Positions 11,650 through 57,437 of a stretch of 64,000 bases of DNA are shown here, piece by piece. The notes under the pieces are model-generated. The model searched no databases, was not told where the DNA came from, and saw only the letters and a program-made list of their open reading frames with translations. This DNA comes from a virus. The position numbers were made by a program, and so were the translations under genes. The first letter of the stretch is position 1. Every line of letters begins with the position of its first letter. Location of the stretch: positions 62,001 to 126,000 of IMG/VR virus record IMGVR_UViG_3300050821_002122; one strand, 5' to 3'.

Positions 11650-11937
11650 TTATTGCGGCAGCTGAACGATGTGGATGCCAGTCGTAACGCCACCAACAAC
11701 GGTCACGTCTTGCGTGTCCGTCAGGCTGCCTGAAGTGGCGGTAACTTGCAGCGTGCCGGCCATGGAGCCGGTGATCACTGCGGTTTTGCCATCAGCCGAT
11801 GGAACGATGGTTGCCTTGGTGGCATCCGATACCGTCCAGGTTACTGCGCCCGGCAGTTCGCCGGTTGGGTTGCCAGCAGCATCTGCGTCCAGAGTCAGAC
11901 CCAGGGTAACTGCTACGCCGGAAGTGAGGTTGATCAT
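11650..11937 (-). CDS. Small Ig-like (BIG2-type) virion protein
   Basis: From ATG 11937 the product has 95 residues and is a single bacterial Ig-like domain: strand repeats, the VTWTVSDATKATI signature, DGKTAVITG and TLQVTATSG. Such domains decorate phage tails and capsids and bind cell-surface carbohydrate weakly. AAAGGAATC precedes ATG 11937. The same frame stays open to a second ATG at 12048, also with a ribosome site (TAAGGAAAC), which would add 37 Cys-rich hydrophobic residues. I prefer the short form because it begins at the domain boundary. Confidence 0.7.
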   Translation of the reverse strand: MINLTSGVAVTLGLTLDADAAGNPTGELPGAVTWTVSDATKATIVPSADGKTAVITGSMAGTLQVTATSGSLTDTQDVTVVGGVTTGIHIVQLPQ

Positions 11938-12057
11938 TTTGATTCCTTTGAAGAGAAGACCAGGCGCTTTATAGACAATATGCAATGGGCCGCCCTTACA
12001 CCCAGTACATAATATGTGGCTAAGCCACATAAAGAGATTACAGAACATGATGTTTCC

Positions 12058-13698: not shown

Positions 13699-13721
13699 TA
13701 TTTATTCCTTTGTTGTAGCAA

Positions 13722-14795: not shown

Positions 14796-14796
14796 A

Positions 14797-16005
14797 TTAG
14801 TTCCAGTACGGGGCGAATTGACCTGGGGCGACTTCGTAGAAGCCAGCAGGATTGGTTAAGAGTTTTCTGCGGTGCACACCAACACAACGAGCGCTTACTG
14901 CAACACCGTCTAATACCGTGAAACTGGATGTTCCGAACACAGGTATGCTTGAGCCAGTTGCCGTAAAGCCACTGATTTTGTACCACGTTACTGGACCGTA
15001 CACCAGATCATACTTGTTACCGGGTTTAGGATCACCGTAAAGCTGAATACCGATATCGCCTTCTACGGTTACATGCTGCGCCGAATTGGAATAGACCGGA
15101 GCCTTCATCGTATGTGCATCGTCAAGATACATCCAACCCGTTGGCTCTCCCAGTAGGAGCGCTGTCGAGAAGTCAGCAGGCACGCTATTCATTGCGTAAT
15201 AAGTAGTCGGCAGCTCATTAGTATTGAGAATATTTACATCTGGTGGCGTGGCACCGTTATTCTTGATGTTGGATATGACCACGTTCTCCATGCCGAAAAG
15301 TGCCATACCAACTATATCCGCAGTCTCTTTGGTCACGGCATCCACAACCTTCATATTGAATGAGGCATCGATGGCGATCAGCACGAGATTGTAGTTAGCG
15401 ATCTCGTAGAAGAACGACTGCAGGGTGCGGATATCCAGACCGCCGAGACCGCCGTAGGCCTCTATCAGAACGTGCGTTGTAGGATACCAAGTACCACCAG
15501 CCCAGATCGGTGTGCCAATCGAGGGATCGCCCTCTGATACGAAGGTCACGTAATCCTCAGTCCATTGATTCTGAATCTGAAGATCAGAGCCCAGGCAGTA
15601 GTTGATGAAGTCCATGAAACCCTGCGTGCCTTTGCCGAACCAGTAGATGCCAACGAATCGAGCAATCGTCTGGTACGCATCATCACTAACAACACCAGCA
15701 TTGTGCAGATTCATGCCCAGCATATTGACTGTTTTGGTTATTAAGTCTCGATCTGGTAGTGACCACGCATCCGCAGGTACGAGTTGCTGACTCTCCACAG
15801 ATATCTCTGTCTGTGGATTTTGAATCCACATATTTCTGATGTTAGATATGATCGAAATTTTATCGTCCACTGCAGGCCCCATTACAGCATCTATAGCGTC
15901 TGTATAAGCAACGAAATAGGGATTGCTACTAAGATACGGGGGAAGTAAGGTTGATCTTGGTATTTTTATACCATCACGCTGATTCTGTTTGTATGATTCT
16001 TCCAT
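14797..16005 (-). CDS. Putative baseplate wedge / tail protein I-like
   Basis: Product of 402 residues directly after the gp6/J-like gene. In many contractile tails the J gene is followed by a tail protein I or gp7-like wedge protein, so the call is mainly positional. The N-terminal helix-rich half contains RFVGIYWFGKGTQGFMDFIN, compatible with the fold of P2 I-like proteins that describe a short helical domain attaching fibres to the wedge. The C-terminal 150 residues look like a separate beta domain. No gap exists to the previous gene. Confidence 0.55.
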   Translation of the reverse strand: MEESYKQNQRDGIKIPRSTLLPPYLSSNPYFVAYTDAIDAVMGPAVDDKISIISNIRNMWIQNPQTEISVESQQLVPADAWSLPDRDLITKTVNMLGMNLHNAGVVSDDAYQTIARFVGIYWFGKGTQGFMDFINYCLGSDLQIQNQWTEDYVTFVSEGDPSIGTPIWAGGTWYPTTHVLIEAYGGLGGLDIRTLQSFFYEIANYNLVLIAIDASFNMKVVDAVTKETADIVGMALFGMENVVISNIKNNGATPPDVNILNTNELPTTYYAMNSVPADFSTALLLGEPTGWMYLDDAHTMKAPVYSNSAQHVTVEGDIGIQLYGDPKPGNKYDLVYGPVTWYKISGFTATGSSIPVFGTSSFTVLDGVAVSARCVGVHRRKLLTNPAGFYEVAPGQFAPYWN

Positions 16006-43707: not shown

Positions 43708-44091
43708 TCAGAGTAGGAAACAACTTACTTGATCGATGATACGCTCACCATCCCATTTCAACACGTAGAGACAATTGGCTGGGAGCAAAAGTTCATCCGA
43801 AGTGAAATACGCATCAGTGATGAGGTGCATGCCAAACATGGTAGCTACATACCCGGTAAGAACTTCCTCACGGCTTCGGGGCTCGATAGCCACTATGAAT
43901 CCATCGCTACCCATTACTGACCCGTAGGTCTTGGAGCCAAAGGCAACCACAATATCGCCTTTTGTTTTCTTGGTTAGCGACTGGTGCATGGATGCCAACA
44001 ACTGAATCGAAAATGGTAAATCGAACTTCGGCTCAGTTCCAGTAGATTGATCGACCAAGCTAAGGATTGATTTGATGTCTTCGGTTTTCAT
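43708..44091 (-). CDS. Unknown protein, paralogue of 39419-39814
   Basis: Product of 127 residues. It shares the GxxxYxxxxxSDxF, MFGMxxxTDAYF and LLLPxxxLYVLxxxGE blocks with the protein at 39419-39814. Its start codon overlaps the stop of thymidylate synthase exon 2 by one base (TAATG), so it is probably translated from the spliced message. Function unknown. Confidence 0.65.
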   Translation of the reverse strand: MKTEDIKSILSLVDQSTGTEPKFDLPFSIQLLASMHQSLTKKTKGDIVVAFGSKTYGSVMGSDGFIVAIEPRSREEVLTGYVATMFGMHLITDAYFTSDELLLPANCLYVLKWDGERIIDQVSCFLL

Positions 44092-44411
44092 TAGACCGCC
44101 ATAGGCGCTTTGATAGCCGCATGATGTTTATAGTTCAGTAGATGGATATCGTTTGGAGCAAGTCCGCTGACTAATTCATCGAGCGACAAGATTGTAGCCC
44201 CAACAGGAACCACTATATCGAGTTCGGGCGGATCGAATGGCTTCCGGCTCAACTGTTCTTCCACCTGATCCAAATGGTTCACGTAGATGTGGGTATCCGA
44301 TAGGAACATCGTCAGCGTTGCTGCGGTGCGGCCAGTCCAGGCAGCGAATAGTCCCAGCAGCAGTGCATAGCCGGCGATGTTGAATGGTGCGCCCAAAAAT
44401 AAATCTACTGA
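44091..44411 (-). CDS. td: Thymidylate synthase, exon 2
   Basis: Second exon, 106 residues plus stop. It encodes SVDLFLGAPFNIAGYALLLG (folate/dUMP-binding region), LSDTHIYVNHLDQVEEQLSR and the terminal NYKHH then IKAPMAV, all hallmark thymidylate synthase segments. It joins exon 1 in frame at MR|SV. The 3' splice site follows the intron-terminal G at 44412. Together the exons give a 314-residue enzyme converting dUMP to dTMP with methylene-tetrahydrofolate. Confidence 0.93.
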   Translation of the reverse strand, partial: SVDLFLGAPFNIAGYALLLGLFAAWTGRTAATLTMFLSDTHIYVNHLDQVEEQLSRKPFDPPELDIVVPVGATILSLDELVSGLAPNDIHLLNYKHHAAIKAPMAV

Positions 44412-45541
44412 CATTATGTTCGATGTGGTTCGCGATACCACACCCGCTAGCTTTGGGCCTCAGCTAACTGCTGCATGTTACCATGCAGAGCAGACTATAT
44501 CACGCTCCTACAAGGAGCCCTTTCTTTTCGAGTGCGCTTGCACCCTACTCTACTTGCTTCCGCACATGCGGGCTTTCGATAGTCGTTAGGCATTTAATCT
44601 ACATACGAGTAATCTGGATAATTCTTGGAACGAATACGATTTAGGATGGTTGCGGTAACTACACCAAGTTTTCTTGCTGCTGCTGTCATGCTTACGTAGG
44701 TTTTTTTACCAATTCGAACCCTCCGCGTGTTGGGAGGAAGTTTACCTTTGTTAAGCTCTGACAAAAGCTGTTTTGTTTTCTTGGTATGTACTTTACCAGC
44801 GAACGAATTCACGTAATCATCGGCAGCCACTCGTGCCAATGCTGATTTTCGATAATTTTCTCTGGCTTCAGGTGTAGTGATGCGCCCGACAGCCTTTTGA
44901 TTACCTAACATGGCATCTGAAAGAATCTTTCTAACTTTTTTAGTATGCGTGTTTCCATACATACCGTTAAGCTCACCAGGTCTGCCCCACGTTTCATCTC
45001 GTTCGTCTTGAGTCATTGCAGCGATGTTCTTATGCATTGTGGTTTTGATCTGCGCTATTATTTCAGTGCGCCTACCATTACGCGTAAGATTATCACCACC
45101 GACAGCGCGCATTCCAATAGTCAATGCTTTTTTATTTTGAAGATTTTTTCGTATTAATTTATCTTCAAGTTTATAAGCATCTCCCCTATCAAGTAGTTTT
45201 ACCACGGTAAAAGTCAGATCAGACGCACCATATTTATCATACAGTTTTTGTAACTTCTGATTTATATGGTCACCACTTGCCAATGCCTTAAGGTGGCCTC
45301 TCTTCCGCGCTCGCATGTTTTTTGAACTACCGTGATAGAATTTTCCAGTTGCTGCACTCGTTATTTTGTAAACACCGCATAGTATTTTCATGACACCTCC
45401 CATTTGGTAGCATCATTAAATTGTGTAGCTAAAAGCGATGTCTAGAATGTAGATATTTAGCACGGGATTGGGTCTGTGACCGTTCCCCGTTTAGAAAGGT
45501 TTGCTAGATAGGTTGCCCTATCAAGGCGCTCAGTGTATCGA
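44412..45541 (-). ncRNA. Group I (IA2-like) self-splicing intron in thymidylate synthase
   Basis: 1130 bases between the exons. The 5' exon ends in U, the intron ends in G (AACATAATG, 44412-44420), and exon GCGU can pair with intron GCGC to give the U.G pair of P1. Core strings: AAACGGGGAACG (45481-45492), ATCCCGTGCTAAAT (within 45455-45470), GCCTAACGACTATC (44578-44591) and GATATAGTC (44493-44501); GACTAT and ATAGTC form P7. GCATGGTAACATGC (44473-44486) forms a hairpin. From memory these strings match the T4 td intron. The intron carries the endonuclease at 44594-45391. Confidence 0.93.
44594..45391 (-). CDS. GIY-YIG homing endonuclease in the intron
   Basis: Product of 265 residues from ATG 45391 (GGGAGGT upstream). 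N-terminal GIY-YIG nuclease: CGVYKITSAATGKFYHGSS, then MRARKRGHLKAL and a Glu in YKLEDKLI. Zinc-independent NUMOD-type DNA-binding repeats follow (ELNGMYGNTHTKKVRKILSD; AGKVHTKKTKQLLSELNKG), and a helix-turn-helix-like NUMOD1 motif SMTAAARKLGVVTATILNRI ends the chain. It is the counterpart of I-TevI of the T4 td intron and would spread the intron to intronless alleles. Confidence 0.93.
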   Translation of the reverse strand: MKILCGVYKITSAATGKFYHGSSKNMRARKRGHLKALASGDHINQKLQKLYDKYGASDLTFTVVKLLDRGDAYKLEDKLIRKNLQNKKALTIGMRAVGGDNLTRNGRRTEIIAQIKTTMHKNIAAMTQDERDETWGRPGELNGMYGNTHTKKVRKILSDAMLGNQKAVGRITTPEARENYRKSALARVAADDYVNSFAGKVHTKKTKQLLSELNKGKLPPNTRRVRIGKKTYVSMTAAARKLGVVTATILNRIRSKNYPDYSYVD

Positions 45542-46165
45542 ACGCATGAGCATTGTCATATGCAAAGTGCCATCTGAGCGCGGCAGGAATTGGAAACTCA
45601 TGTGGCACGCAGGCAAAGCGATCTTATCGATTACCGCCGGATTCCACGCAGTGACGATGATGCGGCGGCTCTGGCTATTGTTCCGAATGTCATTCAAGGC
45701 GTTAGCCAATTGGTCGATACGTTGCTGGGCCACAATGCCGGTTTTGCCTTCCCAGACAAAATCAAATATGGGCATCAGGTGGTCCGGCAAGAAAGGTGCC
45801 TCAGTTAGAATTTGTGGCTGACCTGCCCAGTTACGCCACTGACTGCCGTAGACTGGTCCCAGATCGTCTACGCCTTTACGGTTCGGATTGGCCAACCACG
45901 CAGCGTTCTCGTTGGCGTTCTGATCCCAGACCTTACACCCGTTTGCCCTGAACTCGGCTGCTGATGTGGCGCCATTCAGGAAGCTGATGTATTCACCCTT
46001 GACTGAATCGAAGGCCAGCTTCTTGGTTGTGGTTGCTGGGAAGCCGTCGCGCAGATCGTAGCGCAGCATCTCACCTGGTGTAGTGATCGTGTCGATGCCA
46101 GTACGGTTGGGTTCACGCTGGCCGACGGTCAAAACGTGCTTCATCAAATCTTGGTAGTTTTTCAT
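45542..46165 (-). CDS. td: Thymidylate synthase, exon 1
   Basis: First exon, 208 codons from ATG 46165 (AGGAAGC upstream). It contains NRTGIDTITTPGEMLRYDL (Arg for phosphate binding), GPVYGSQWRNW, SRRIIVTAWNP and the catalytic Cys187 in ALPACHMSFQF. After Arg208 the frame would end within nine bases in the intron, so splicing is required for an active enzyme. dTMP supply pairs with the FolE and deazaguanine genes of the same region only by location. Confidence 0.93.
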
Positions 46166-47413: not shown

Positions 47414-47733
47414 AGGTCCGCCATATAGATAGCTGACGGACGCATGCTGATCCTGTAGTCGCCGTCGTAGACATTGAAGTCTTCGACTGGGCCATCGTTG
47501 ACTGTATCGGTCTTCAACACATAGTGAACCTGACAACCAGCAATCGTTGTGTTGCCGACCTGCATGTACCAATTGGCGGACTTACCGTTTGGCCTGATAC
47601 CCAACGTATCCTCGGCTGTGCAGACACCATTTAGGGTGCCGAAGATAGCTCGGTACTGTTTGCCGTCAGCACCATAGAACCAGCTGTCTACGGTCACCAG
47701 AACTTTGTCACCAACCTGAGCGTTAATCATCAT
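47410..47733 (-). CDS. Unknown beta-rich protein
   Basis: Product of 107 residues; start overlaps the previous stop (ATGATGA; ATG 47733 or 47730). It contains GDKVLVTVDSWFYGADGKQY, RAIFGTLNGV, RPNGKSANWYMQVGN and GCQVHYVLKTD, a single small beta barrel by appearance. No family function known to me. Confidence 0.6.
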   Translation of the reverse strand: MMINAQVGDKVLVTVDSWFYGADGKQYRAIFGTLNGVCTAEDTLGIRPNGKSANWYMQVGNTTIAGCQVHYVLKTDTVNDGPVEDFNVYDGDYRISMRPSAIYMADL

Positions 47734-48260
47734 TGCACCATGAATGGTATGTGGAAGTGCTTCAGAGCCAACTCAACCTGCAGAGTGGACCAATCGAAAA
47801 GCGGGTACACGTATTGCTGACCATGTTCACCCAGTTCGAGGTACATGGGCATTTGTTCGATTGGCCACTGTACACCCCTGACGTCAAGCGTCTTACCTGG
47901 ATGGCGATCCATACGCAAACCACTGATGCACGTAATAAGACCCATTTCTTTAGCGTCAGCAGCCGCAGGCGCCGAGTAGTAATACTGCGTCAGCGTCTTG
48001 GTAAGCTCAGGCGCAGTAACACCAGGTTCGATGTTGAATACAACCGGGCATCCGATGCTGGCCTCACCAAGCAGTTCCATTATAAGAGTCGATGAGCGGC
48101 CACCGCTGTGTGCAACGTAGAGGCTATCACGGTCAAACGGGATTGCCTTCAATCGCTTGATGGTTTCTTCGATCATACCTGGTACAGTGCCGGTCATGAA
48201 TGCCAGGTATTCAGGAGTATGGCCTTGAGCAGCCAAGTAGCGGTCATCGATCAGTTGCAT
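47730..48260 (-). CDS. PAPS-reductase-type PP-loop protein, motif variant
   Basis: Product of 176 residues from ATG 48260 (GGAGACGAC upstream). N-type ATP-pyrophosphatase fold: LYVAHSGGRSSTLIMELL carries the PP-loop, in which the usual Asp of SGGxDS is Ser (SGGRSS). The C-terminal YPLFDWSTLQVELAL matches the PAPS reductase/DndC family. It is related to the protein at 53781-54371, which has an intact loop. In this modification block it could activate a substrate by adenylation, but the loop change makes activity uncertain. Confidence 0.78.
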   Translation of the reverse strand: MQLIDDRYLAAQGHTPEYLAFMTGTVPGMIEETIKRLKAIPFDRDSLYVAHSGGRSSTLIMELLGEASIGCPVVFNIEPGVTAPELTKTLTQYYYSAPAAADAKEMGLITCISGLRMDRHPGKTLDVRGVQWPIEQMPMYLELGEHGQQYVYPLFDWSTLQVELALKHFHIPFMVQ

Positions 48261-48438
48261 TGTCGTCTCCATCGTATGGTGGTGGGGTTTGGGTCTGCGT
48301 TTCTCCACACATGGGACAACCGTCCTGCGTGTAGTGAATGTTGTCCACAGTTTGGATATGTGCAGGGTACCAATTGCCGCACAAACACTGTGCTACAATC
48401 TGAGGTTTATCTTTGCATGCCTTCCAGTCCAAGACCAT
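48244..48438 (-). CDS. Small zinc-ribbon protein
   Basis: Product of 64 residues from ATG 48438 (AAGGAG upstream; TGATG overlap with the folE stop). Two Cys pairs, CLCGNWY and CPMCGE, 22 residues apart, make a zinc ribbon. It is similar to the protein at 56723-56914 (CKCGHIY, CANCGD). These may be nucleic acid- or partner-binding adaptors in the modification block. Confidence 0.68.
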   Translation of the reverse strand: MVLDWKACKDKPQIVAQCLCGNWYPAHIQTVDNIHYTQDGCPMCGETQTQTPPPYDGDDNATDR

Positions 48439-49124
48439 CACGTTGCTCCTTTGGTTTGCTCCACCATACGGTAGAATTCTTCTTTTAGGGATTTGTCGGT
48501 GCGCATTTCACCACGCATCACGGAGGTGACCATACGACTACCTTGATCCTTCACACCGCGGTGGCCGCAGCACAAATGATTGCCCACGACCATAACGGCC
48601 AGACCTAATGGTTCGGTCAACGCCTCCAGCTCATTAGCTATCTGATCTGTAAGTTCCTCCTGAATTTGCGGGCGGCTTGCTATATGAGCCACGATGCGAT
48701 GGAACTTGGAGAGGCCGATCAGTTTGTCTTGAGGTAAGACACCGATGTAGGCCTGTCCGGTAATAGGTACCAGATGGTGGGCACATGAGCTACGCATATT
48801 AATGGGGCCAACGACGTATAGCTCATCGACCTTATTCACGTTAGGGAATTCAGTGACATCGGGCATCGGAACATACCGACCGTTGAAGGTCTCCAATACC
48901 AGCATCTTGGCAAAGCGACGAGCGGTATCTGCCGAGTTATGATCGTTCTTCGTGTCGATGACCAGCGACTTTAGCACTGCCTGCATTTTGGTAGCAACCT
49001 CATCGACCAACAGTGGTATGTCTTTCTCATCGATTGCCGACGAGATGTTGTCGTTGCTGAAGAACCGCATTTTACCTGCTGCGAGTCGGTCACGAATAAC
49101 ATCACTGATTGGTTTGATTTTCAT
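48438..49124 (-). CDS. folE: GTP cyclohydrolase I
   Basis: Product of 228 residues from ATG 49124 (GGGGATC upstream, ATGA overlap with queE). FolE signatures: RSSCAHHLVPITGQAYIGVL (zinc Cys114 and His), LIGLSKFHRIV, RPQIQEELT and GNHLCCGHRGV with the second zinc Cys. It opens GTP to dihydroneopterin triphosphate, first step of folate and 7-deazaguanine synthesis. Coupling with queE and the DpdA-like gene points to deazaguanine. Confidence 0.95.
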   Translation of the reverse strand: MKIKPISDVIRDRLAAGKMRFFSNDNISSAIDEKDIPLLVDEVATKMQAVLKSLVIDTKNDHNSADTARRFAKMLVLETFNGRYVPMPDVTEFPNVNKVDELYVVGPINMRSSCAHHLVPITGQAYIGVLPQDKLIGLSKFHRIVAHIASRPQIQEELTDQIANELEALTEPLGLAVMVVGNHLCCGHRGVKDQGSRMVTSVMRGEMRTDKSLKEEFYRMVEQTKGAT

Positions 49125-49909
49125 GCGATCCCCAGAAAAATATGTGCTTGAATACTGACGTTGATAGAGTGCTTCAGTGCGTAGGCTGCCGCGTATTGGA
49201 AGTTTGCTGCGGTCTGTACTTTGTCCACCAAGCCGTCTTCCCAGATGGAAGAAACTTCGCCCATGTACGCCTTCTGATAGATCACCATAGGTGACACGTA
49301 TATAGGCTTGTGGCTTTCTAGCGCCCAATCAGGAACCTCATGATGCGGGTTGTCTGGATCAGCAGATATAACAAACTTAAGGCAGTTAGCCCACCAGAGG
49401 ACGTCGTTGTTGATTTTCGGATACTTGCCAGTATTGACATTTGCTTTAGGCGAAACAACCGATACGAAACGTTTGGTCATCTTGCGACGCACTGCCTCCA
49501 AGTAGAACTTGGGCTGCGTACCGTTGGTTTCCAGTTGGATCGTCTCGAACATCGGCTCTGCCAAAACGATCAGATCGAGTAACGCCAGTTGCAACGTTGG
49601 TTCTCCGCCTGTGATGACCAGTATCTGTTTCTTGTTGTAGCCCTGGGTCATGATGAAGTCTAGCAACTCCTGCGGAGTGTAGGCATTAGCAGTATCGAAC
49701 TGGAAACTGGTATCGCAGAAGTGGCAGAAATCAGTCTTCGATCCGTAGTTGCAGCCAGCTAGGCGCACGAACATAGCTGGACGGCCCACCAAAGGACCCT
49801 CACCTTGATGCGTTGCGAAGACAGACGAAACCAACAGGCGACCATCCAGCGCCTTGTAATCTCGCGCAGATACATTGCGATCTGCGTTTTGGGGAATAAT
49901 TGGGATCAT
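49121..49909 (-). CDS. queE: 7-carboxy-7-deazaguanine synthase (radical SAM)
   Basis: Product of 262 residues. The start SVFATHQGEGPLVGRPAMFV is the QueE opening, followed by RLAGCNYG and DFCHFCDT; Cys53, Cys62 and Cys65 bind the iron-sulfur cluster in a CX8CX2C variant. VITGGEPTLQ and LETNGTQ are the SAM-binding segments. It converts the QueD product to 7-carboxy-7-deazaguanine. GAGGAAT ribosome site. Confidence 0.93.
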   Translation of the reverse strand: MIPIIPQNADRNVSARDYKALDGRLLVSSVFATHQGEGPLVGRPAMFVRLAGCNYGSKTDFCHFCDTSFQFDTANAYTPQELLDFIMTQGYNKKQILVITGGEPTLQLALLDLIVLAEPMFETIQLETNGTQPKFYLEAVRRKMTKRFVSVVSPKANVNTGKYPKINNDVLWWANCLKFVISADPDNPHHEVPDWALESHKPIYVSPMVIYQKAYMGEVSSIWEDGLVDKVQTAANFQYAAAYALKHSINVSIQAHIFLGIA

Positions 49910-49918
49910 GGTAATTCC

Positions 49919-50275
49919 TCAGTAGATCATTTTGTGATGGTCCTTGGTCTCGGCCAACTGGATACCATCGGATTTTGATTTGACGACTGCAGGTTTAAGT
50001 TCGCGTATGAAGCCCTTTATGAGCATAACCTCTGCATCGCGCTTCGGACGTACTGTTGACCGCATGTATAGACCTCGCGCATAAACAGCATCGCAGATCG
50101 GGATACCACAGACCTTCAGAGTGTCAACGTGATCGTAGATATATACATCGTTCGGTTTGCCAGCTTTGACCCAAGCATACACTGACTTGTAGGTCTCCTT
50201 GTCGATCCTGCCAAAGATCAGGCCACCTACTCGGCGTTTGACCTTACAGGAATTTGCGACTATGGAATTTTTCAT
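49919..50275 (-). CDS. Unknown protein between queE and dpdA
   Basis: Product of 118 residues that starts 32 bases inside the dpdA 3' end (GAGGAG upstream). Contains VYAWVKAGKPNDVYIYDHVD, CGIPICDAVYARGLYMRSTV and a Lys-rich C-terminus. No family recognised. Tight coupling between two modification genes suggests it serves the same pathway, for example as a DNA-binding partner; that is inference. Confidence 0.6.
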   Translation of the reverse strand: MKNSIVANSCKVKRRVGGLIFGRIDKETYKSVYAWVKAGKPNDVYIYDHVDTLKVCGIPICDAVYARGLYMRSTVRPKRDAEVMLIKGFIRELKPAVVKSKSDGIQLAETKDHHKMIY

Positions 50276-51530
50276 AGCTCCTCAGTATCTTGGTATAAAG
50301 TTCTTGATTGGGGACCTTACCCGTTGACCGAAACAACGACTTGGTCGTATTGGATTGTCGCAGGGTAGTGAATTTATCTTTCTCGATAATAGACTCAGCA
50401 TACTTAACAAACTTGTGGAATTCGTTGTACTTGAGCGTCAGGTTCAGTGTCTTGTAAATCTCTTCCAGCTTCACTGTGCCTTTAACGTACTGGTAGGCCA
50501 TGTCACTCATCAGCTTAGCCCACTGTGCGCGCACCCACAGGTTGTGGGCCTCCAGTACGTAGGTGTTGTTGACGATGCGGATGTCATCCAGCGCAAAGCA
50601 AACCGGACAGTTACAGGGCATCGCTTGGTGGTAAGTCTGTTTCTTGTGTAGGCTTATCGTCTGGAAGTCGTAAGTGTCGTACATGCCAACCAAAGCACCA
50701 AGGCGATGGCTAACCGAGTCGGCACCAATCGATTTGACGTAGCCTGACGAATCGAGCAATGCGTATATAAACAGCCAGAACTTGGAGGTGATACCAAGCA
50801 CATGGAAGTAGCGAGCGGATTTGTGGTAGCGTTGAACCACATACATCAAGCTCTCTAGAGCAGTGGTCACGTGATCGACGCCAGGAGCAGGTTTGATACC
50901 CAGACCTGCGATGGCTATAACCCTAGCCTTACGGTCTAGAACATCCAAGCGCGATTTGCGCCGAGCTAACGTTGATCCGTGACTGATGATTGCGAGATCG
51001 ATACCTGGCTTCAGATGCTTCAACATGAAGTCATCGTTGGCTTTAATCATCTTCGACACTGGGTCCCAGAACATATGCTCAGCAGCCGACGGCACCGGCA
51101 AGTCAAGGGGCATTGCGATGTTCGCCTTCACGTTGTAAAGCTTGACGAGATTGGTTGGGTCAACAAAGTCGACCGTACCTTTCAGCATTTGAAAGCCGCC
51201 GCTATCAACAATCGATTCGATGCCTTGCTGCTCGAATGGTTCTTTGATGAATCCACCGTGGATAGGATTGGCCAGAACCTTCGTGATGCCGCAGTTCTTT
51301 AGGAAGGACGAACTCAATGTTGGTACGATGACGTCGGCTTGGTCCTTCGATGTGACGCCACCGCGTGTAGAAGTATTGACGACAACGATGGTCTTCTCCT
51401 TCGCTCGCCATCTCTTGTACAGCTTACCGTGTTCGGATGTCTCCGCTTCATTTGGTTTGTTGGTAATCTGTATTTGAGTTGTGCGATCAGAGTAGCCCTC
51501 ACCACCGGCAGGAACGTAGCAGAGAGTCAT
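50244..51530 (-). CDS. dpdA: DpdA-like DNA-guanine transglycosylase
   Basis: Product of 428 residues of the tRNA-guanine transglycosylase superfamily: the base-exchange Asp109 in IVDSGGFQMLKG, MPLDLP, a candidate nucleophile Asp in YVKSIGADSVSH, and zinc ligands CNCPVC with His some 20 residues on. The chain is diverged from tRNA enzymes and lies with queE and folE, as phage and bacterial DpdA enzymes do, which exchange guanine in DNA for a 7-deazaguanine. A promoter-like site and a terminator lie just upstream, so it may start an operon. Confidence 0.85.
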   Translation of the reverse strand: MTLCYVPAGGEGYSDRTTQIQITNKPNEAETSEHGKLYKRWRAKEKTIVVVNTSTRGGVTSKDQADVIVPTLSSSFLKNCGITKVLANPIHGGFIKEPFEQQGIESIVDSGGFQMLKGTVDFVDPTNLVKLYNVKANIAMPLDLPVPSAAEHMFWDPVSKMIKANDDFMLKHLKPGIDLAIISHGSTLARRKSRLDVLDRKARVIAIAGLGIKPAPGVDHVTTALESLMYVVQRYHKSARYFHVLGITSKFWLFIYALLDSSGYVKSIGADSVSHRLGALVGMYDTYDFQTISLHKKQTYHQAMPCNCPVCFALDDIRIVNNTYVLEAHNLWVRAQWAKLMSDMAYQYVKGTVKLEEIYKTLNLTLKYNEFHKFVKYAESIIEKDKFTTLRQSNTTKSLFRSTGKVPNQELYTKILRSYEKFHSRKFL

Positions 51531-51554
51531 ATAGTCTTTCGTGATTAGATACTA

Positions 51555-51563
51555 CTATTTACT
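51555..51563 (-). promoter_or_regulatory. AGTAAATA-type promoter-like site before dpdA
   Basis: Minus strand reads GCAGTAAATAGTA, 25 bases upstream of the dpdA ATG and directly after the terminator at 51569-51600, where a new promoter would be expected. Same core as at 26100, 56717 and 59570. Confidence 0.55.
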
Positions 51564-51568
51564 GCGAC

Positions 51569-51600
51569 AAAAGGCACTGCTCTTGTTAGGAGTCAGTGCC
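51569..51600 (-). terminator. Rho-independent terminator after glycosyltransferase
   Basis: Minus strand GGCACTG pairs with CAGTGCC (plus 51594-51600 and 51573-51579), followed by TTTT. It ends the transcript carrying the glycosyltransferase and deacetylase genes before dpdA. Confidence 0.82.
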
Positions 51601-51608
51601 CAGTTGTC

Positions 51609-52700
51609 TCACAGGTCGAGTAGTTCGTTGATGATGTTGTCCATGCCGGAGGTATCGAGCGGCAACTTCGGACGCGGTGTATCGAATCGGCTTATCCACT
51701 TGCACGCCTGCTCGAAATCATCACCGTTCAAGCGCATGTTGAACTGGTACTGCCGAGTTACAAACTCATCGTGACTTAGGCCTGTTGATAGCAATGGTAC
51801 ACAGCCGTAGTGGACTGCTTCGGCTATGCAGTAGCCATAGTTCTCTTCAATTGAGTGCGAGACCATCATGTAAGCTTCAGCCAATTCGCGGTGATACTGC
51901 TCTTTGGTGAGACCGGGTTTGATGGTAATGATGCCGGCAGCAACCATGTTATTGAGCAGAAGGTTGTCCTCAACGCGACCGCGGAAGCCCGGTCGCCCGG
52001 TGCAGACCACAAATTCCCAATCAGGGAATTTATGCTTCAACTCCCTGAAAAGTTTGAGTGTCAAACTTGGTCGCTTCTCGTGGTCAAAGCGATTGGTCAG
52101 CACGACCTTTTTCTGCTTTTTTACGGCACCGAAATCATGGTATTCATCAAGGAACAGAGGATTCTTCGTGACCACGATTTTAGCCGGCCAGGCAGAACCG
52201 GTTAAACCACGCCGAGTAATAACGACTTGTTGATGATATTTGGAGCCCACGAAGACCTTATCCAACGCACTTAACCAGCCAACCTCGGTGTACTGCTGGT
52301 ACTCCTCTGCGATAGAGAACGCATCCTCTTTGGTATAGGATGCTGCATGCAGGAAGCCCGTCAGCTTCACATCTTTTAGGCCATTCATTTGAGCCATCAG
52401 CTTTACCGATTCCAAGCCCCAGAATTCGATATCACCGAAGAAGAAAATGTCGTCATTGCGGACTTCGCCACAATGGAACATGCGCGCGACTTCCTGCAAC
52501 TGCGTCATCTTGTAGTGGACGGTCGAGTTGATATCCAAGAAGGCGCCGACCTTAATTTCGTTGTCCAGTAGCGGCTTACCCTCTATGGTAAGAACCTCAA
52601 AGCCGAATCGCTCGAAGGCGAGTGGAAAGTTGCGGTACCATTGCTCCGTATAGCGCTCGGTGATAGGCTCGATAGGGACCATTATGATTCGACGTTTCAT
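51609..52700 (-). CDS. GT-B glycosyltransferase 1
   Basis: Product of 363 residues with a GT-B architecture. The C-terminal nucleotide-sugar half shows VVLTNRFDHEKRPSLTLKLF (acceptor/phosphate loop), and AEAYMMVSHSIEENYGYCIA with EAVHYGCVPLL, the E-x7-E-like pattern of GT4-type enzymes. A cytosolic sugar transferase using a nucleotide sugar is expected. Coupling to the deacetylase gene through a 140-residue gene fits GlcNAc transfer followed by deacetylation, but the acceptor is not shown. Confidence 0.87.
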   Translation of the reverse strand: MKRRIIMVPIEPITERYTEQWYRNFPLAFERFGFEVLTIEGKPLLDNEIKVGAFLDINSTVHYKMTQLQEVARMFHCGEVRNDDIFFFGDIEFWGLESVKLMAQMNGLKDVKLTGFLHAASYTKEDAFSIAEEYQQYTEVGWLSALDKVFVGSKYHQQVVITRRGLTGSAWPAKIVVTKNPLFLDEYHDFGAVKKQKKVVLTNRFDHEKRPSLTLKLFRELKHKFPDWEFVVCTGRPGFRGRVEDNLLLNNMVAAGIITIKPGLTKEQYHRELAEAYMMVSHSIEENYGYCIAEAVHYGCVPLLSTGLSHDEFVTRQYQFNMRLNGDDFEQACKWISRFDTPRPKLPLDTSGMDNIINELLDL

Positions 52701-53119
52701 AGCTCGGTATCTCCTTCAAATTCGTCTGGGGTGGTAGCGATAAAGTTTCTAGCCGCAACACACAGTACCTCACGCTCTGGTGAATGGAACTTGACCTGAT
52801 CGTCCTCCCACAAGTTTGCCACTGAATTGAAGTACTCCTGCGGCAACGTCAGCATCAGGCTCACGTTGCTAGGTCTTCGCATGTTTTGCTTACCGCAGAC
52901 CTTCGTCACTTCGATGGTAACCTGCTTGTTCTCAAACATGTTACCGACAGCCTCATAGTTCAGCGTGTTACCGTGATCGCTAACGTAGAGGTGGTTGGTG
53001 CAATTTTCTTTCAGTAGGTCTTGGATGATATGTTTGTTGGTGATCAATTCCACAGCGCTAACGAACAGCGTCTTTACGCCACGCAAGCGCCCTTCGCATT
53101 CTACCCCGATCTTAGCCAT
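52697..53119 (-). CDS. Unknown protein between glycosyltransferase and deacetylase
   Basis: Product of 140 residues (GGAGG upstream). It begins MAKIGVECEGRLRGVKTLFV and has LYVSDHGNTLN, KVCGKQNMRRPSNVSLMLTL and VLCVAARNF. The alternating strands and an acid-rich loop near the start suggest an alpha/beta enzyme domain, but I know no matching family. It overlaps the glycosyltransferase start by four bases, so a shared pathway is likely. Confidence 0.6.
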   Translation of the reverse strand: MAKIGVECEGRLRGVKTLFVSAVELITNKHIIQDLLKENCTNHLYVSDHGNTLNYEAVGNMFENKQVTIEVTKVCGKQNMRRPSNVSLMLTLPQEYFNSVANLWEDDQVKFHSPEREVLCVAARNFIATTPDEFEGDTEL

Positions 53120-53788
53120 TTAAGCCTCCACAGTAATATTGTCGTAGGTGACTGTCACCTTACCGGTGCAGATAGCCAGCAAGTCATTCATAAATTCCCT
53201 GCGGTTGTGACCAAATTGACCACCTCGGTTATTTGTCAAATGCCAACCGAGTACCTTATCGACATCGTTCACTGGCACAGTGACGGCTAGCGTACGGCCG
53301 CTCGGCTGCGTCCATGCCAGCGTGCGGTACTCGTCGTAGTCAGTTTCCTGTATGTCCTCAAACAGCCAGTATTTGTCGTTGTTCTCCCATAGCGATGCCT
53401 GACTAGGATAAATATCGTTAAGTAGTTTTTGTTTGGCTCTTGGTACCTGTACCAACTTACCGCATGCCATATCAACGCTATAGAACTTGGTGGCCTTATT
53501 ACGATATTTTGCGTTGACCATCTTGTGGTCCGCATGCCAATCTTTGCGACTCGGGACATAGACCTCGTGGTACCCATCAGGAATTTCGTAAGTATTGAAG
53601 TCAGCGAACTCCAAATCGAAACCAAAGGATGCACAGCACACCAGGGCTTCTGCCTTGCGTTCATCGGTCAACTCAAAAAAGTAGACGACCGACACAGTTA
53701 CTTCAGGGTCCAGTAAGACCGACCAGCAGCCGATGACCTCATCGTCTGCGTGCGGTGCTAAGATCAATACCGGCTGGCGCCTAATCAT
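53120..53788 (-). CDS. PIG-L/LmbE-type N-deacetylase
   Basis: Product of 222 residues from ATG 53788 (GGAGTAC upstream; eight-base overlap). Zinc motif VLILAPHADDEVIGC with His13, Asp15 and Asp16, and the distal DWHADHKMV, are the signatures of the family that removes acetate from GlcNAc groups (MshB, BshB, PIG-L). It commonly works right after a GT-B GlcNAc transferase, and two such enzymes flank it here. Confidence 0.92.
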   Translation of the reverse strand: MIRRQPVLILAPHADDEVIGCWSVLLDPEVTVSVVYFFELTDERKAEALVCCASFGFDLEFADFNTYEIPDGYHEVYVPSRKDWHADHKMVNAKYRNKATKFYSVDMACGKLVQVPRAKQKLLNDIYPSQASLWENNDKYWLFEDIQETDYDEYRTLAWTQPSGRTLAVTVPVNDVDKVLGWHLTNNRGGQFGHNRREFMNDLLAICTGKVTVTYDNITVEA

Positions 53789-54371
53789 GATAGTACTCCG
53801 GCGATACTGGGATGTCGTAGTGGAAAATCGCAGCCCATACTTCTTCGTCGGACCAGTCGTAGATCGGGTAGCAGAAATTCTGACCAAATAAACCACTAGT
53901 TAGATACAGCGGGGTCTCCGTGCGTGAGACTTCTCTACCTTCGACGATCAGGCCAATGTCGCGGCCATCACGACGATCAGCCTCAGCGACGCGAGTACCA
54001 TCGATTTGCACTTTGTAACCAAGTCGAGGTAAGTTCTCACCATCCGGTACGTACAGAATTGGACGATTCAGGCTGTACAGAAATTCTTTAGTCAGCGGAT
54101 GGACCTCATTGCGAATACCGCTAGGCTTCGGAGTGTGGATAGTCATCACGCCGGGACCAAGTGCGCGGTCAGTGAGCCAGCGCACGAGGACCGAGTCTTT
54201 GCCGCCGCTGTGGCCAACGTAGACGACGCTTCCAATAATACGAAATGGCATACCGAAGATACGCTGACCGGCCTCTTCCACTAGCGTATGGATACTCGCT
54301 GTGGCGTCACACAGTTTATTACGATCCAGTGCCTGACGTTCGATGATGATATTTTGAATTCTGGAATCCAT
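53781..54371 (-). CDS. PAPS-reductase-type PP-loop protein, intact motif
   Basis: Product of 196 residues (AAGGAAA upstream). PP-loop VVYVGHSGGKDSVLVRWL has the full SGGxDS signature. YPIYDWSDEEVWAAIFHYDI is the C-terminal DWSxxDVW element of PAPS reductase/DndC proteins. The fold adenylates a substrate carboxyl or sulfate. QueC, which completes preQ0, uses the same ATPase class, and no classical QueC is in the window, so this protein could fill a QueC-like step; that is a hypothesis. Confidence 0.82.
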   Translation of the reverse strand: MDSRIQNIIIERQALDRNKLCDATASIHTLVEEAGQRIFGMPFRIIGSVVYVGHSGGKDSVLVRWLTDRALGPGVMTIHTPKPSGIRNEVHPLTKEFLYSLNRPILYVPDGENLPRLGYKVQIDGTRVAEADRRDGRDIGLIVEGREVSRTETPLYLTSGLFGQNFCYPIYDWSDEEVWAAIFHYDIPVSPEYYHD

Positions 54372-54372
54372 G

Positions 54373-55734
54373 TTATTTTCCTTTGAATAGTTTGCGGGTA
54401 GTGGTCTTCGGCTGCTGATTCTTAACAGGCTTTACACCGGTGTGATAGTAAAGCGTGCCCTTTACTACCGTGGTCTCTACACCTAGCTTACGAAGACCGT
54501 GATAGTAGTCACTCCAGAATGTATTTACTGGCTGACGTCCGGTGGCAGACCATCCCATTACTGCGTAGACTTCTTGCTTCGTCAGCGCCTTCTTGTCGAG
54601 CGCCTTCATGACGAGCGCGATCTTTGGGCTCTTTGTAGATGCACGCTCAAGGCGCTGACCGAATACATCGACTAACCGGGCACTTAGTTTCTTTTTGTAC
54701 TGCTCGGTATTGGTGATTTTCGCCAGACCTTGTGCTGTGTATTTAAGGACCTTATCGGCGTAACCTTTTTCGGTTACCAAGCGATGCAAACGCTCGGGTA
54801 CTTCTTTTGCCTTCAGCGTAGTCTTATCACCTATGATTTTCGTATAGGCTTCGTTGCAAGGCAGATTGAATATCGCCAAACCATAACGTGCGCTTTCTAG
54901 AATGGAGATGCCGTAACTCTCTGCCGTTGACGTGCCAATGGTGACATTTGCGTCCATTAGCGATTGCTCATAAGCTGCGTCGTCATAGGCAAAGGGACGC
55001 TGCTCGGTGACCGCAGCCAGGCTCTTTGGTACTATTTTCTTGATCTCGTCGGATGTCAAGGACGACAGCAAAATGATCTTAATTGGCACCTTTGGGTACC
55101 GTGTGTGGAAGTCTTCTATTATGCCAAAGAACGCCTTTGGATTCTTTGCAGCATTCAGGCGGTGATTCCACAAGAATGTCAAGGTTTTGAAATTCTTCTT
55201 GATGTCCTTGGGCGGCTCAAACTTGTACAGGTCTGGAGGAGGCAAGACCAACATTTTAGATTCCACTACCTTGAGGGCATTCTTAGACCACAGCTTCGGC
55301 AATTCGATATTCATCAGAGTATCGCGCAGTACAGGCGACACCATGATAACATCAGAAACAAGCATTGAGGCAAATATATCCAGCATATGGGCTTTATTCT
55401 TTTGCCACCGCGTGTCCAGCAAATCCATCCCGTAGTGCCCGTGCGCTATACGCATCACCTTCAAGAAGTCTTGGAAATAAGCACCATGGTTACCAGAGAA
55501 GTTCAGTAGCTCGTTGAAGCTCAATGCATCTTCGGCGTAGAAGAAATCCGAATCGCAGTTCCAGAAGTCTATGGTTTCGTATGCCTGTCGCGTGTTCATA
55601 ACCGAACGCGGATTAAACAACGTCAGCCGTGTGTTGTCGTATAGTTTGTTGGCGAGAACGCGGTAGTGAGGAACGAATTTGTTCTTGTTGGCATTCGTTT
55701 CCTCAATGCCGAATATATTCAGAGTAGGCTTCAT
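54373..55734 (-). CDS. GT-B glycosyltransferase 2
   Basis: Product of 453 residues. GT-B C-terminal signature: TLTFLWNHRLNAAKNPKAFF then ANVTIGTSTAESYGISILES and ARYGLAIF. The N-terminal acceptor domain (to about residue 160) is unlike the other glycosyltransferase here. The last ~90 residues are basic (KKALTKQEVYAVMGWSATGR; Lys-rich end), which would suit DNA binding. It starts right after a terminator, with only weak GGAC upstream. Confidence 0.83.
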   Translation of the reverse strand: MKPTLNIFGIEETNANKNKFVPHYRVLANKLYDNTRLTLFNPRSVMNTRQAYETIDFWNCDSDFFYAEDALSFNELLNFSGNHGAYFQDFLKVMRIAHGHYGMDLLDTRWQKNKAHMLDIFASMLVSDVIMVSPVLRDTLMNIELPKLWSKNALKVVESKMLVLPPPDLYKFEPPKDIKKNFKTLTFLWNHRLNAAKNPKAFFGIIEDFHTRYPKVPIKIILLSSLTSDEIKKIVPKSLAAVTEQRPFAYDDAAYEQSLMDANVTIGTSTAESYGISILESARYGLAIFNLPCNEAYTKIIGDKTTLKAKEVPERLHRLVTEKGYADKVLKYTAQGLAKITNTEQYKKKLSARLVDVFGQRLERASTKSPKIALVMKALDKKALTKQEVYAVMGWSATGRQPVNTFWSDYYHGLRKLGVETTVVKGTLYYHTGVKPVKNQQPKTTTRKLFKGK

Positions 55735-55748
55735 TATGCGTCCAAGGC

Positions 55749-55781
55749 AAAAGCCCTGACCTGATGGTGCAGGCCAAGGCT
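55749..55781 (-). terminator. Rho-independent terminator between T-fold gene and glycosyltransferase 2
   Basis: Minus strand AGCCTTGGCCTG pairs with CAGGTCAGGGCT over 12 positions (two G.U) and is followed by TTTT. It stands 15 bases before the glycosyltransferase start. Partial read-through would make expression of the downstream genes lower than that of queD. Confidence 0.8.
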
Positions 55782-55787
55782 CGTGGT

Positions 55788-56249
55788 TTAAATAGTTTGA
55801 ACTGGTATTGCCTTGACATACTCCAGCGTCGCACCGTTGATGTTGTCCTCCAGTACCGAGACTTTGATATCACGCCCCTTGTATTTGTCGGCGATGCGGC
55901 CAATCAACGACTCAGCAAGCATCTCGCACGATTGACTGTTCAACTTCATGACGCCTTGATCGTAGAGGCGCTGGCACCAACGGCTGAATTGGATAAATTC
56001 GATATCGCGGTCATTTTGGAAAACTTCGACAGTGACCTTGAACGTGAAGTAGTGGAAGTGAGGTGACGCCAAGAAAGAAACGTCATCCCATTCTCCGGTT
56101 GCCAGATTTGGATCGGTAGCCGCAGCAGGATAGCAGTGTACGCCTTCCTTGACGAACTCAACATGAATCCATCGTTTCATAAGCGGCTGGCTTACAAAGT
56201 CCACACCTTTGCTATCGGGTATGGAGGTCTTTTGATTTGGTTTGAACAT
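55788..56249 (-). CDS. T-fold-like protein, second QueD-like
   Basis: Product of 153 residues from ATG 56249 (GGAGAATA upstream). It contains ASPHFHYFTFKVTVEVFQND, then RDIEFIQFSRW, KLNSQSCEMLAESLI and VSVLEDNINGATLEY; HFH plus E and a terminal acidic/Asn-Gly loop are the layout of tunnelling-fold (QueD/FolE/QueF) enzymes. It follows queD directly. Either a diverged pterin-type synthase or a partner subunit; exact reaction unknown. Confidence 0.6.
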   Translation of the reverse strand: MFKPNQKTSIPDSKGVDFVSQPLMKRWIHVEFVKEGVHCYPAAATDPNLATGEWDDVSFLASPHFHYFTFKVTVEVFQNDRDIEFIQFSRWCQRLYDQGVMKLNSQSCEMLAESLIGRIADKYKGRDIKVSVLEDNINGATLEYVKAIPVQTI

Positions 56250-56250
56250 T

Positions 56251-56697
56251 CTATTCTCCGAGGTAGATTGCGCTGTTGCTGCCGTGTTCCGAAACCTGTG
56301 CCGATACGAGACGCACTCGCGGCGCATGACCACTGCCTTGTAACCACTGGTTGGCTATGTCGTAGGCCATACGAGCGAATGCCTCGCAGCCGACTGCCTC
56401 GACTACCAGCAGGTCCAAGATGCCCTCTTGGCACATAGCCTTAAATTGGTCAAGCTTAGGATCGTCCTTTGCGACCAGCGTCTTGTGATCGAAGTGACTA
56501 CGATAGATAGCCTCCACTTCCTTCAGTGCGCCGAAATCGACAACCCAATTGCGTTCGTCCAATTCGGTGGCCTCGAAGACCAACTCAATGGCGATAGCGT
56601 AACCATGTACACGGGCACAATGCGATGCTGCCCGCCATTGCCTGAATGCGCAACTGAGGCCTCGCTCATGGCCCCATTTCTTGGTAGATCGAAACAT
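56251..56697 (-). CDS. queD: 6-carboxytetrahydropterin synthase
   Basis: Product of 148 residues (AAGGAGC upstream). QueD-type landmarks: GLSCAFRQWRAASHCARVHG (zinc His26 and His31; the third position of the classical HGH is Tyr33), NWVVDFGALK, HFDHKTLVAKDDP and VSEHGSNSAIY. It converts dihydroneopterin triphosphate from FolE into the QueE substrate. Candidate promoter 20 bases upstream. Confidence 0.9.
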   Translation of the reverse strand: MFRSTKKWGHERGLSCAFRQWRAASHCARVHGYAIAIELVFEATELDERNWVVDFGALKEVEAIYRSHFDHKTLVAKDDPKLDQFKAMCQEGILDLLVVEAVGCEAFARMAYDIANQWLQGSGHAPRVRLVSAQVSEHGSNSAIYLGE

Positions 56698-56716
56698 GTT
56701 TGCTCCTTAAAATCAG

Positions 56717-56725
56717 TATTTACTA
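56717..56725 (-). promoter_or_regulatory. TAGTAAATA promoter-like site before queD
   Basis: Minus strand reads GTAGTAAATACTG, 20 bases upstream of the queD ATG and overlapping the stop of the zinc-ribbon gene. Same core as the sites at 26100, 51555 and 59570. Confidence 0.5.
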
Positions 56726-56914
56726 CCCGAGCGTATGTGACTCTGGGTCACTACGTGCTGCGCGCATATGGGTGTCGCCGCAGTTCGCGCAAGGTATCCG
56801 TGCAACGATCTGAAGAATCGTGATGTCGAATTTTGCATGACTGCGATATATGTGACCGCATTTGCATTCGACGGTGTATTCTGGGTATTGGTCTAGGTTG
56901 GTCCAGTCAATCAT
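56723..56914 (-). CDS. Small zinc-ribbon protein, paralogue of 48244-48438
   Basis: Product of 63 residues from ATG 56914 (GGGAGAAATC upstream). VECKCGHIYRSH and RIPCANCGD form the two Cys pairs, with the same spacing class and position after a short acidic start as the protein at 48244-48438. It overlaps the HNH gene stop by eight bases. Role unknown, possibly an adaptor for the modification enzymes. Confidence 0.68.
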   Translation of the reverse strand: MIDWTNLDQYPEYTVECKCGHIYRSHAKFDITILQIVARIPCANCGDTHMRAARSDPESHTLG

Positions 56915-57437
56915 GATTTCTCCCTGCAGGTTTAGGTAAATATCCCTTCTTATGAAAGATAGTTTTTGCAGCAAAATACGCTGCGCTTGCAGCTTTGGCA
57001 GTGTCAAACCTACCAAGATAGTAATATTTACCGTTGAGACCGATTCGTGACATGAATACCCCATTCAGTTTCGTTACACCAAGCAGACCTGTCTTATTAC
57101 GCCTATGGGCAATTACCTGATTCTGTTGATTCACAGAATTAGTAGTTGCCCTAAGGTTGGACCAACTATTATTTTGCTTATTTCTGTCTTTATGGTCTAC
57201 CATATTTTCAGGGTAGCAACCTCTGACGAATAAATAGGCTAACCTATGAGCTTTATACGCCAATCCATGAATACGAATAACGACATAGCCTTTAGCCAAA
57301 GTACCCGCCGTAGTACCTTGTTTAGCTCTGGTAGCTATCGTTATTCGCCACGTAAAAGAGCCCGTAAGTTTGTCATAACGTAAAAGCGACATAAGCTCTC
57401 GGCGAGACAACTCATTTTTCTTTTTGAGTTTTGGCAT
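56907..57437 (-). CDS. HNH-AP2 homing endonuclease
   Basis: Product of 176 residues. N-terminal SLLRYDKLTGSFTWRI, then YKAHRLAYLFVRGCYPENMV followed by DHKDRNKQNNSWSNLR is the HNH nuclease (His in VDHKD, two Asn), and TGLLGVTKLNGVFMSRI with RFDTAKAASAAYF is the AP2 DNA-binding module. It is inserted between two coupled genes with overlaps at both ends and resembles the HNH-AP2 part of the polymerase gene at 63446-63952. Composition is AT-rich. Confidence 0.92.
   Translation of the reverse strand: MPKLKKKNELSRRELMSLLRYDKLTGSFTWRITIATRAKQGTTAGTLAKGYVVIRIHGLAYKAHRLAYLFVRGCYPENMVDHKDRNKQNNSWSNLRATTNSVNQQNQVIAHRRNKTGLLGVTKLNGVFMSRIGLNGKYYYLGRFDTAKAASAAYFAAKTIFHKKGYLPKPAGRNHD

Follow-up and report, generated by a model that had tools for sequence, protein, structure and literature searches.

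The window, the whole stretch of 64,000 nucleotides analysed here, comprises bases 62001-126000 of the 189,689-bp IMG/VR virus record IMGVR_UViG_3300050821_002122. On its minus strand, a co-directional block of genes at 47730-56914 combines enzymes of 7-deazaguanine synthesis and a DpdA-type transglycosylase with two glycosyltransferases and a PIG-L-type deacetylase. Based on its gene content, the block probably serves the synthesis of a sugar-carrying 7-deazaguanine and its insertion into DNA. In the direction of transcription, the order is zn2, QueD, Tf, GT2, ppB, PIG-L, H140, GT1, DpdA, a 118-aa protein, QueE, FolE, zn1 and ppA (Table 1). All of the genes that a preliminary description had named in this interval were found there. 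Its coordinates were also correct; the start codons were adjusted for PIG-L (53788), FolE (near 49124), Tf (56249) and zn2 (56914).

Table 1. Genes of the block, listed in the direction of transcription, with positions in the window and the supporting evidence
Feature	Position	Strand	Evidence
zn2, zinc ribbon, 63 aa from ATG at 56914	56723..56914	-	CxC...CxxC by eye; paralogue of zn1
QueD, 6-carboxytetrahydropterin synthase	56251..56697	-	PF01242 E=1.6e-18; 58% identity to QDH83431 of Achromobacter phage Motura
Tf, second T-fold protein, QueD paralogue, candidate DpdL	55788..56249	-	phrog_17812 E=1e-22; zinc triad H...HxH kept
GT2, GT-B/GT4-like glycosyltransferase, weakly recognised	54373..55734	-	PF20706 E=0.023; E-x7-E 272-280
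ppB, PP-loop (PAPS-reductase-like) ATPase	53781..54371	-	phrog_2302 E=4e-10; SGGKDS intact
PIG-L/LmbE-type N-deacetylase	53120..53788	-	zinc motifs PHADDE and HADH intact; family match to PF02585
H140, conserved 140-aa protein, unknown fold	52697..53119	-	homologues in Xanthomonas phage X1 and other glycosyltransferase loci
GT1, GT4-family GT-B glycosyltransferase, cassette core	51609..52700	-	PF00534 E=3.6e-7; 47% identity to X1 WEM34306
DpdA-type DNA-guanine transglycosylase	50244..51530	-	transglycosylase motifs; profile match to solved tRNA-guanine transglycosylases
118-aa protein	49919..50275	-	homologues directly after DpdA in loci L015-L017 and L037
QueE, 7-carboxy-7-deazaguanine synthase (radical SAM)	49121..49909	-	PF04055 E=4e-9; 45% identity to Motura QueE
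FolE, GTP cyclohydrolase I, likely ATG at 49124	48438..49124	-	PF01227 E=2e-45
zn1, zinc ribbon	48244..48441	-	CxC...CxxC; paralogue of zn2
ppA, second PP-loop protein, degenerate motif SGGRSS	47730..48308	-	phrog_2302 E=0.001; 29% identity to ppB

The predicted transglycosylase carried the motifs DSGGFQ at 109, D143, HVLG at 243, D271 and the zinc motif CxCxxC at 306. Its family profile matched solved tRNA-guanine transglycosylases (TGTs) with E=2.5e-10 and the DNA-guanine transglycosylase 7ui4 with E=0.013. The nearest relatives of the window DpdA, QueD and QueE were proteins of Achromobacter phage Motura, the annotated TGT of which shares 27% identity with DpdA. Motura has QueC and an asparagine-synthetase-like gene in place of the sugar genes; at 11848-15152 of this locus (L002), QueC is followed by the asparagine-synthetase-like protein and then immediately by DpdA, and genes in this order could yield a 7-deazaguanine extended through an amide. 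The TGT of Xanthomonas phage X1 was hardly alignable to the window DpdA by BLAST, despite the same order of the sugar cassette in the two phages. A scan of viral contigs with the single DpdA sequence gave no matches.

For the precursor pathway, the record was searched for the enzymes that follow QueE. No match to PF06508 (QueC) was present in the 189,689-bp record, which may be incomplete, and QueC was likewise not found in the GT1 records searched, with the exception of Xanthomonas phage PhiXhv-12. Neither the window record nor any of the GT1/PIG-L records searched contained a QueF over the cut-off. Without QueC and QueF, the known part of the pathway ends at 7-carboxy-7-deazaguanine (CDG), possibly continuing to 7-deazaguanine. 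The bases preQ0, preQ1 and archaeosine, cited in the preliminary description among those carried by DpdA phages, are unlikely here, since neither QueC nor QueF was found in the record. By this reasoning from gene content, CDG or 7-deazaguanine is more likely than preQ0 to be the substrate. In PhiXhv-12 (L014, 6876-10110), PIG-L and a diverged glycosyltransferase lie beside a Gat-QueC protein, with DpdA and QueD elsewhere in the genome. The annotation of this protein as a glutamine-fructose-6-phosphate aminotransferase (GlmS), and with it a role as the hexosamine source, was rejected as it carries a full QueC domain.

Of the sugar genes, GT1 was over the cut-off for PF00534 and contains the GT4-type E-x7-E motif at residues 286-294 (E286-E294). 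The PDB relatives of its profile act on glycans, and a pattern scan of 84,980 cellular genomes found no GT1 relatives. The best Pfam match of GT2, to PF20706 (GT4-conflict), was weak; the sole other copy of this protein was found in locus L020, with 34% identity. The window PIG-L protein matched PF02585 with E=0.0007, under the Pfam cut-off; for the family, PF02585 was matched by 17 of 20 aligned members and N-terminal stretches (best E=3.5e-7). The zinc motifs PHxDDE and HxxH were conserved across the cassette members. PIG-L matched the structure 1uan with E=0.0025 and is 35% identical to the X1 homologue. When the PIG-L half of a PIG-L-Tf fusion was searched with Foldseek, methyltransferase-like Rossmann folds were ranked and no PIG-L entry appeared in the top 50; the PIG-L assignment therefore rests on the sequence motifs and Pfam.

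The second T-fold-like protein of the preliminary description proved to be real. In the model of the PIG-L fusion, the Tf domain (predicted local distance difference test, pLDDT, 83) had 6-pyruvoyl-tetrahydropterin synthase (PTPS, 2dj6) as its best Foldseek match, with probability 1.00. Tf keeps the QueD-like H...HxH set, and its profile can be aligned to that of QueD. A separate QueD over the PF01242 cut-off was present besides Tf in 14 of 20 records searched, including the window record, and X1, PA5oct, Phosso, ACP17 and BUCT-ZZ01 are also among those with both proteins. A role for Tf as a replacement of QueD is ruled out by the separate QueD in most records. Judged from these comparisons, Tf is a conserved core part of the cassette and not a spare QueD. 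Tf also adjoins FolE in phages that have no GT1 (RHph_I1_18, Bakedbeans, Ahp1 and D479). In Vibrio phage Bakedbeans (gp176; L011, 8182-9363) it forms one protein with a preceding N-terminal stretch of approximately 265 aa that belongs to no recognised family.

A related cluster occurs in Cellulophaga phage phiST, where the Tf protein CGPG_00067 (E=1e-24 with the Tf profile) lies beside FolE, QueE and QueD, with no QueC annotated. Unlike the window, this cluster has a TGT-like protein of another, much diverged lineage (CGPG_00065), and its proteins that were tested gave no GT1 match. Work by Cui in 2023 reportedly predicted a CDG decarboxylase, DpdL. CGPG_00067 is a good candidate for this protein, and Tf may be DpdL. 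The TGT-like lineage that accompanies Tf in phiST and in phages without GT1 has DNSGFE and H-LG motifs (L012 9426-10298; L013 9698-10555; L010 11095-12363; L011 16036-17016; L067 5601-6380). This lineage is possibly an additional subfamily of DpdA, linked to the other DpdA groups by motif only, as the profile comparison with them was not significant.

Two PP-loop proteins had also been described, and ppA and ppB are indeed paralogues (29% identity, E=2e-17 in a pairwise comparison). In ppA, SGGRSS takes the place of SGGKDS and the motif aspartate is lost. The ppB protein is 45% identical to X1 WEM34303, and its family profile matched CysD (1zun, E=5e-8). Neither protein is recognised as QueC: there was no PF06508 match, and families of phosphoadenosine-phosphosulfate (PAPS) reductase were matched instead. 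In locus L028, a PP-loop domain is fused to a QueE-like N-terminal motif. H140 has a homologue in X1 and in 12 of the 25 GT1 loci described below, and stands directly before GT1 whenever present. Its model was confident (pLDDT 91), with no match in the PDB. H140 has no radical SAM CxxxCxxC cysteine triad; it shares an EGxxxGxxTxF-like start and a weak profile similarity (probability 22%) with QueE, and from these sequence features it is possibly a Cys-less QueE remnant. The zinc ribbons zn1 and zn2, also described as paralogous, matched each other by BLASTP with E=4e-6 in one pairwise comparison; no counterpart of zn2 was found in related loci.

The cassette was then compared with other phages. 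In X1, the order is FolE, PP-loop (45% identity to the window protein), PIG-L (35%), H140 (34%), GT1 (47%), TGT, Tf (42%) and QueE. X1 was the sole match to PIG-L, the PP-loop protein and H140 among 50,697 phage records. GT1 relatives were present in 20 of these records, Tf relatives in 20 and both in 16, from five unrelated groups: PA5oct-like Pseudomonas phages, Sinorhizobium phage Phosso, Acidovorax phage ACP17, Synechococcus phage BUCT-ZZ01 and X1. When IMG/VR was scanned with the two GT1 proteins of the window and X1, 25 loci were obtained, representing 17 clusters at 80% amino-acid identity. Within approximately 10 kb of GT1, PIG-L was found in 24 of these, Tf in 22, DpdA in 19, FolE in 17, PP-loop proteins in 14 and H140 in 12. 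None of these families was found in 10 control loci, which were distant PP-loop matches taken through the same pipeline, and the linkage therefore exceeds chance. Seven of the 19 DpdA proteins were of the window type and 12 of a second type matching phrog_887 ('queuine tRNA-ribosyltransferase'); in L023, L024 and L039, DpdA lay elsewhere in the record. Across the loci compared, the sugar module is thus seen with two or more DpdA lineages that are highly divergent from each other. PIG-L and Tf form a single fused protein in 15 loci, and all parts were co-directional in the representatives tabulated, except in L021. The gene assignments, the linkage, the fusions and the lack of QueC and QueF are supported by sequence and comparison. 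The conserved co-directional linkage with divergent DpdA lineages, together with the fusions, supports the earlier proposal that the glycosyltransferase and PIG-L are part of a 7-deazaguanine DNA system.

The gene sets are nested. The smallest, DpdA, Tf and GT1 with neither PIG-L nor a PP-loop protein, was found in PA5oct, ACP17 and BUCT-ZZ01, and also in Phosso, where a more distant DpdA match lies elsewhere in the genome. PIG-L is added, still with no recognised PP-loop protein, in L026, L027 and L030-L037. The PP-loop protein and usually H140 are further added in the window, X1, L015-L021, L023-L025 and L039, and in L028 and L029, which have another protein where H140 would sit. The exception is L022, which on a 12-kb contig has H140 but neither PIG-L nor a PP-loop protein. 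This nesting suggests a stepwise order in which the sugar comes first, its deacetylation second and an ATP-dependent reaction at the amine third, and the gene comparison suggests such a sequential reading as the simplest. Additional enzymes occur in some sugar clusters of other phages: in L037 (5450-7922), a radical SAM/SPASM protein, another glycosyltransferase and, by eye, a sulfotransferase-like protein, a second radical-SAM-like protein in L029 (8263-9012) and, by eye, a GT-A-like protein in L039 (7585-8376). These suggest further decorations.

In the pathway postulated for the window phage, FolE, QueD and QueE would convert GTP to CDG. With no QueC or QueF, CDG would not proceed to preQ0 or preQ1 and would instead be processed by Tf, perhaps by decarboxylation to 7-deazaguanine. 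DpdA would swap guanine in the phage DNA for the Tf-processed base. GT1, together with GT2 in the window phage, would add a sugar, probably an N-acetylated hexosamine, from which PIG-L would strip the acetyl group. Using ATP, ppB with H140 would then modify or couple the freed amine. The order of these steps, the addition of the sugar before or after insertion, its identity and attachment atom, and the nature of the last step are what we infer. Tentatively, the products would form a class of hexosamine-7-deazaguanine bases defined by GT1 and PIG-L, with the amine extended by the PP-loop protein in the window and X1 type; Tf and H140 would be paralogues or derivatives, dedicated to this system, of the queuosine-pathway enzymes QueD and QueE. 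The 'bulky positive base' proposed initially is one possibility; the free amine may be capped, because the window phage further encodes a PP-loop enzyme from the class that acts by activating a carbonyl or carboxyl group. As a whole, the initial reading is a prediction that is partly supported.

Several points weigh against this pathway. Were Tf to decarboxylate CDG, C7 would bear only a hydrogen, with no obvious point for a sugar to attach. PhiXhv-12 pairs PIG-L and a diverged glycosyltransferase with Gat-QueC and has no Tf, and the substrates of PIG-L proteins are not always GlcNAc. No DpdA was present in the contigs of L021, L022 and L025 (three of the 25 loci). The GT1 patterns were derived from two sequences, which favours close relatives, and several of the 25 loci are near-duplicates.

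The main rival to the sequential reading, though unlikely, is an amide-linked variant. Here the sugar would be placed on a small acceptor or supplied as a hexosamine, PIG-L would free its amine, and ppB would adenylate the C7 carboxylate of CDG and couple the two, giving DNA with a 7-deazaguanine-7-carboxamide of an aminosugar. The absence of QueC with a different PP-loop enzyme present and the fusion of a PP-loop to a QueE-like domain in L028 are consistent with this, and MshA-B-C and BshA-B-C share the order of glycosyltransferase, deacetylase and ligase. There are also precedents: Cap9 and QatC of the QueC family, ATP-dependent ligases, join CDG to an amine (PMC11996544, PMC13329287), and a phage 5-carboxymethylcytosine-glycine ligase joins a base carboxylate to glycine (PMC12783734). 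However, many loci, those of the second nested set, have a glycosyltransferase and PIG-L with no recognised PP-loop protein, and if Tf removes the carboxylate, nothing remains to amidate.

It is improbable that the glycosyltransferases and PIG-L are mere travel companions of the deazaguanine genes and target a surface glycan, a protein or a small thiol. GT4 and PIG-L pairs do make intermediates of mycothiol (MSH), bacillithiol (BSH) and glycosylphosphatidylinositol (GPI), and the glycan-active PDB relatives of GT1 would fit such a role. Yet the module keeps its co-directional linkage beside two or more highly divergent DpdA lineages, in phages that otherwise share little, and PIG-L is fused to Tf, a family that also sits in FolE-QueD-QueE clusters with neither glycosyltransferase nor QueC. 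Among the Pfam matches of the block there was no ligase like MshC or BshC. An unglycosylated 7-deazaguanine DNA, with the glycosyltransferases and PIG-L inactive or vestigial in the window phage, is very improbable: sequence by itself cannot demonstrate activity and GT2 is weakly recognised, but deeply divergent members still share the PIG-L zinc motifs and the GT1 E-x7-E.

Least credible is glycosylation, as in T4, of a hydroxymethyl-pyrimidine from the neighbouring thymidylate-synthase homologue independently of the deazaguanine, for although a ThyA-family gene lies 1.6 kb downstream of the block and glucosylated hydroxymethylcytosine (hmC) is the classic phage sugar base, the record's only ThyA-family gene has PFNIA, whose Asn usually marks a thymidylate synthase and not a dCMP hydroxymethylase, so that it looks like a true thymidylate synthase and argues against such a sugar acceptor, and in other phages GT1 goes with DpdA and not ThyA. 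The thymidylate synthase gene itself is split (43708-46165, minus strand), with the N-terminal part at 45530-46165 and the C-terminal part at 44091-44441. Between them lies a GIY-YIG/NUMOD3 homing-endonuclease open reading frame (44594-45403), which suggests an intron or intervening element; no group I intron was found with Rfam in this region. Adjoining the cassette on its upstream side is an HNH endonuclease (56907-57437) that matches AP2 weakly and is possibly a mobile element.

Parts of the cassette resemble known systems. As in the glucosylation of hmC in T4, a phage DNA base would be glycosylated as a shield; T4, however, modifies a pyrimidine via a hydroxymethyl handle, and its precursor pathway is unrelated. 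The MshA/MshB/MshC and BshA/BshB/BshC pathways similarly use a GT4-type transferase, a PIG-L deacetylase and then a coupling step. Their acceptors are inositol phosphate or malate, they include no deazaguanine genes and their coupling enzymes are not PP-loop proteins. As a DNA-guanine transglycosylation system, the cassette is of a known kind, sharing FolE, QueD, QueE and DpdA with the phage pathway in which guanine in DNA is expected to be replaced after replication (Hutinet 2019, PMC6884629). In contrast to that pathway it has no QueC or QueF and adds GT1, PIG-L, Tf, a PP-loop protein and H140; the same paper makes no mention of glycosyltransferases or PIG-L. In animal tRNA, mannosyl- and galactosyl-queuosine are made by QTMAN and QTGAL (PMC12518689), and there too a dedicated transferase puts a sugar on a 7-deazaguanine that is part of a nucleic acid; these enzymes differ in acting on tRNA, with the queuosine cyclopentene hydroxyl as the acceptor, and no deacetylase is involved. 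Cap9 and QatC (PMC11996544, PMC13329287) are, like ppB, PP-loop enzymes, and use CDG with an amine; they belong to the QueC family and target a protein N-terminus, whereas ppB is PAPS-reductase-like. The literature searched, with incomplete coverage that makes any novelty provisional, described no 7-deazaguanine in DNA with a sugar attached and contained nothing relevant on glycosylated deazaguanine or PIG-L in a DNA-modification context.

The predicted sugar-decorated base would probably be a shield against host defences. If the postulated pathway is correct, phages glycosylate purines of their DNA and not pyrimidines only, and the deazaguanine and sugar strategies are merged in one base that is large and perhaps carries a charge. 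Many restriction and CRISPR nucleases should then be blocked by it, and defence systems would gain a new target. The cassette offers several uncharacterised families of nucleic-acid-modifying enzymes, with the cultured isolates X1, PA5oct/Paride, ACP17 and Phosso available.

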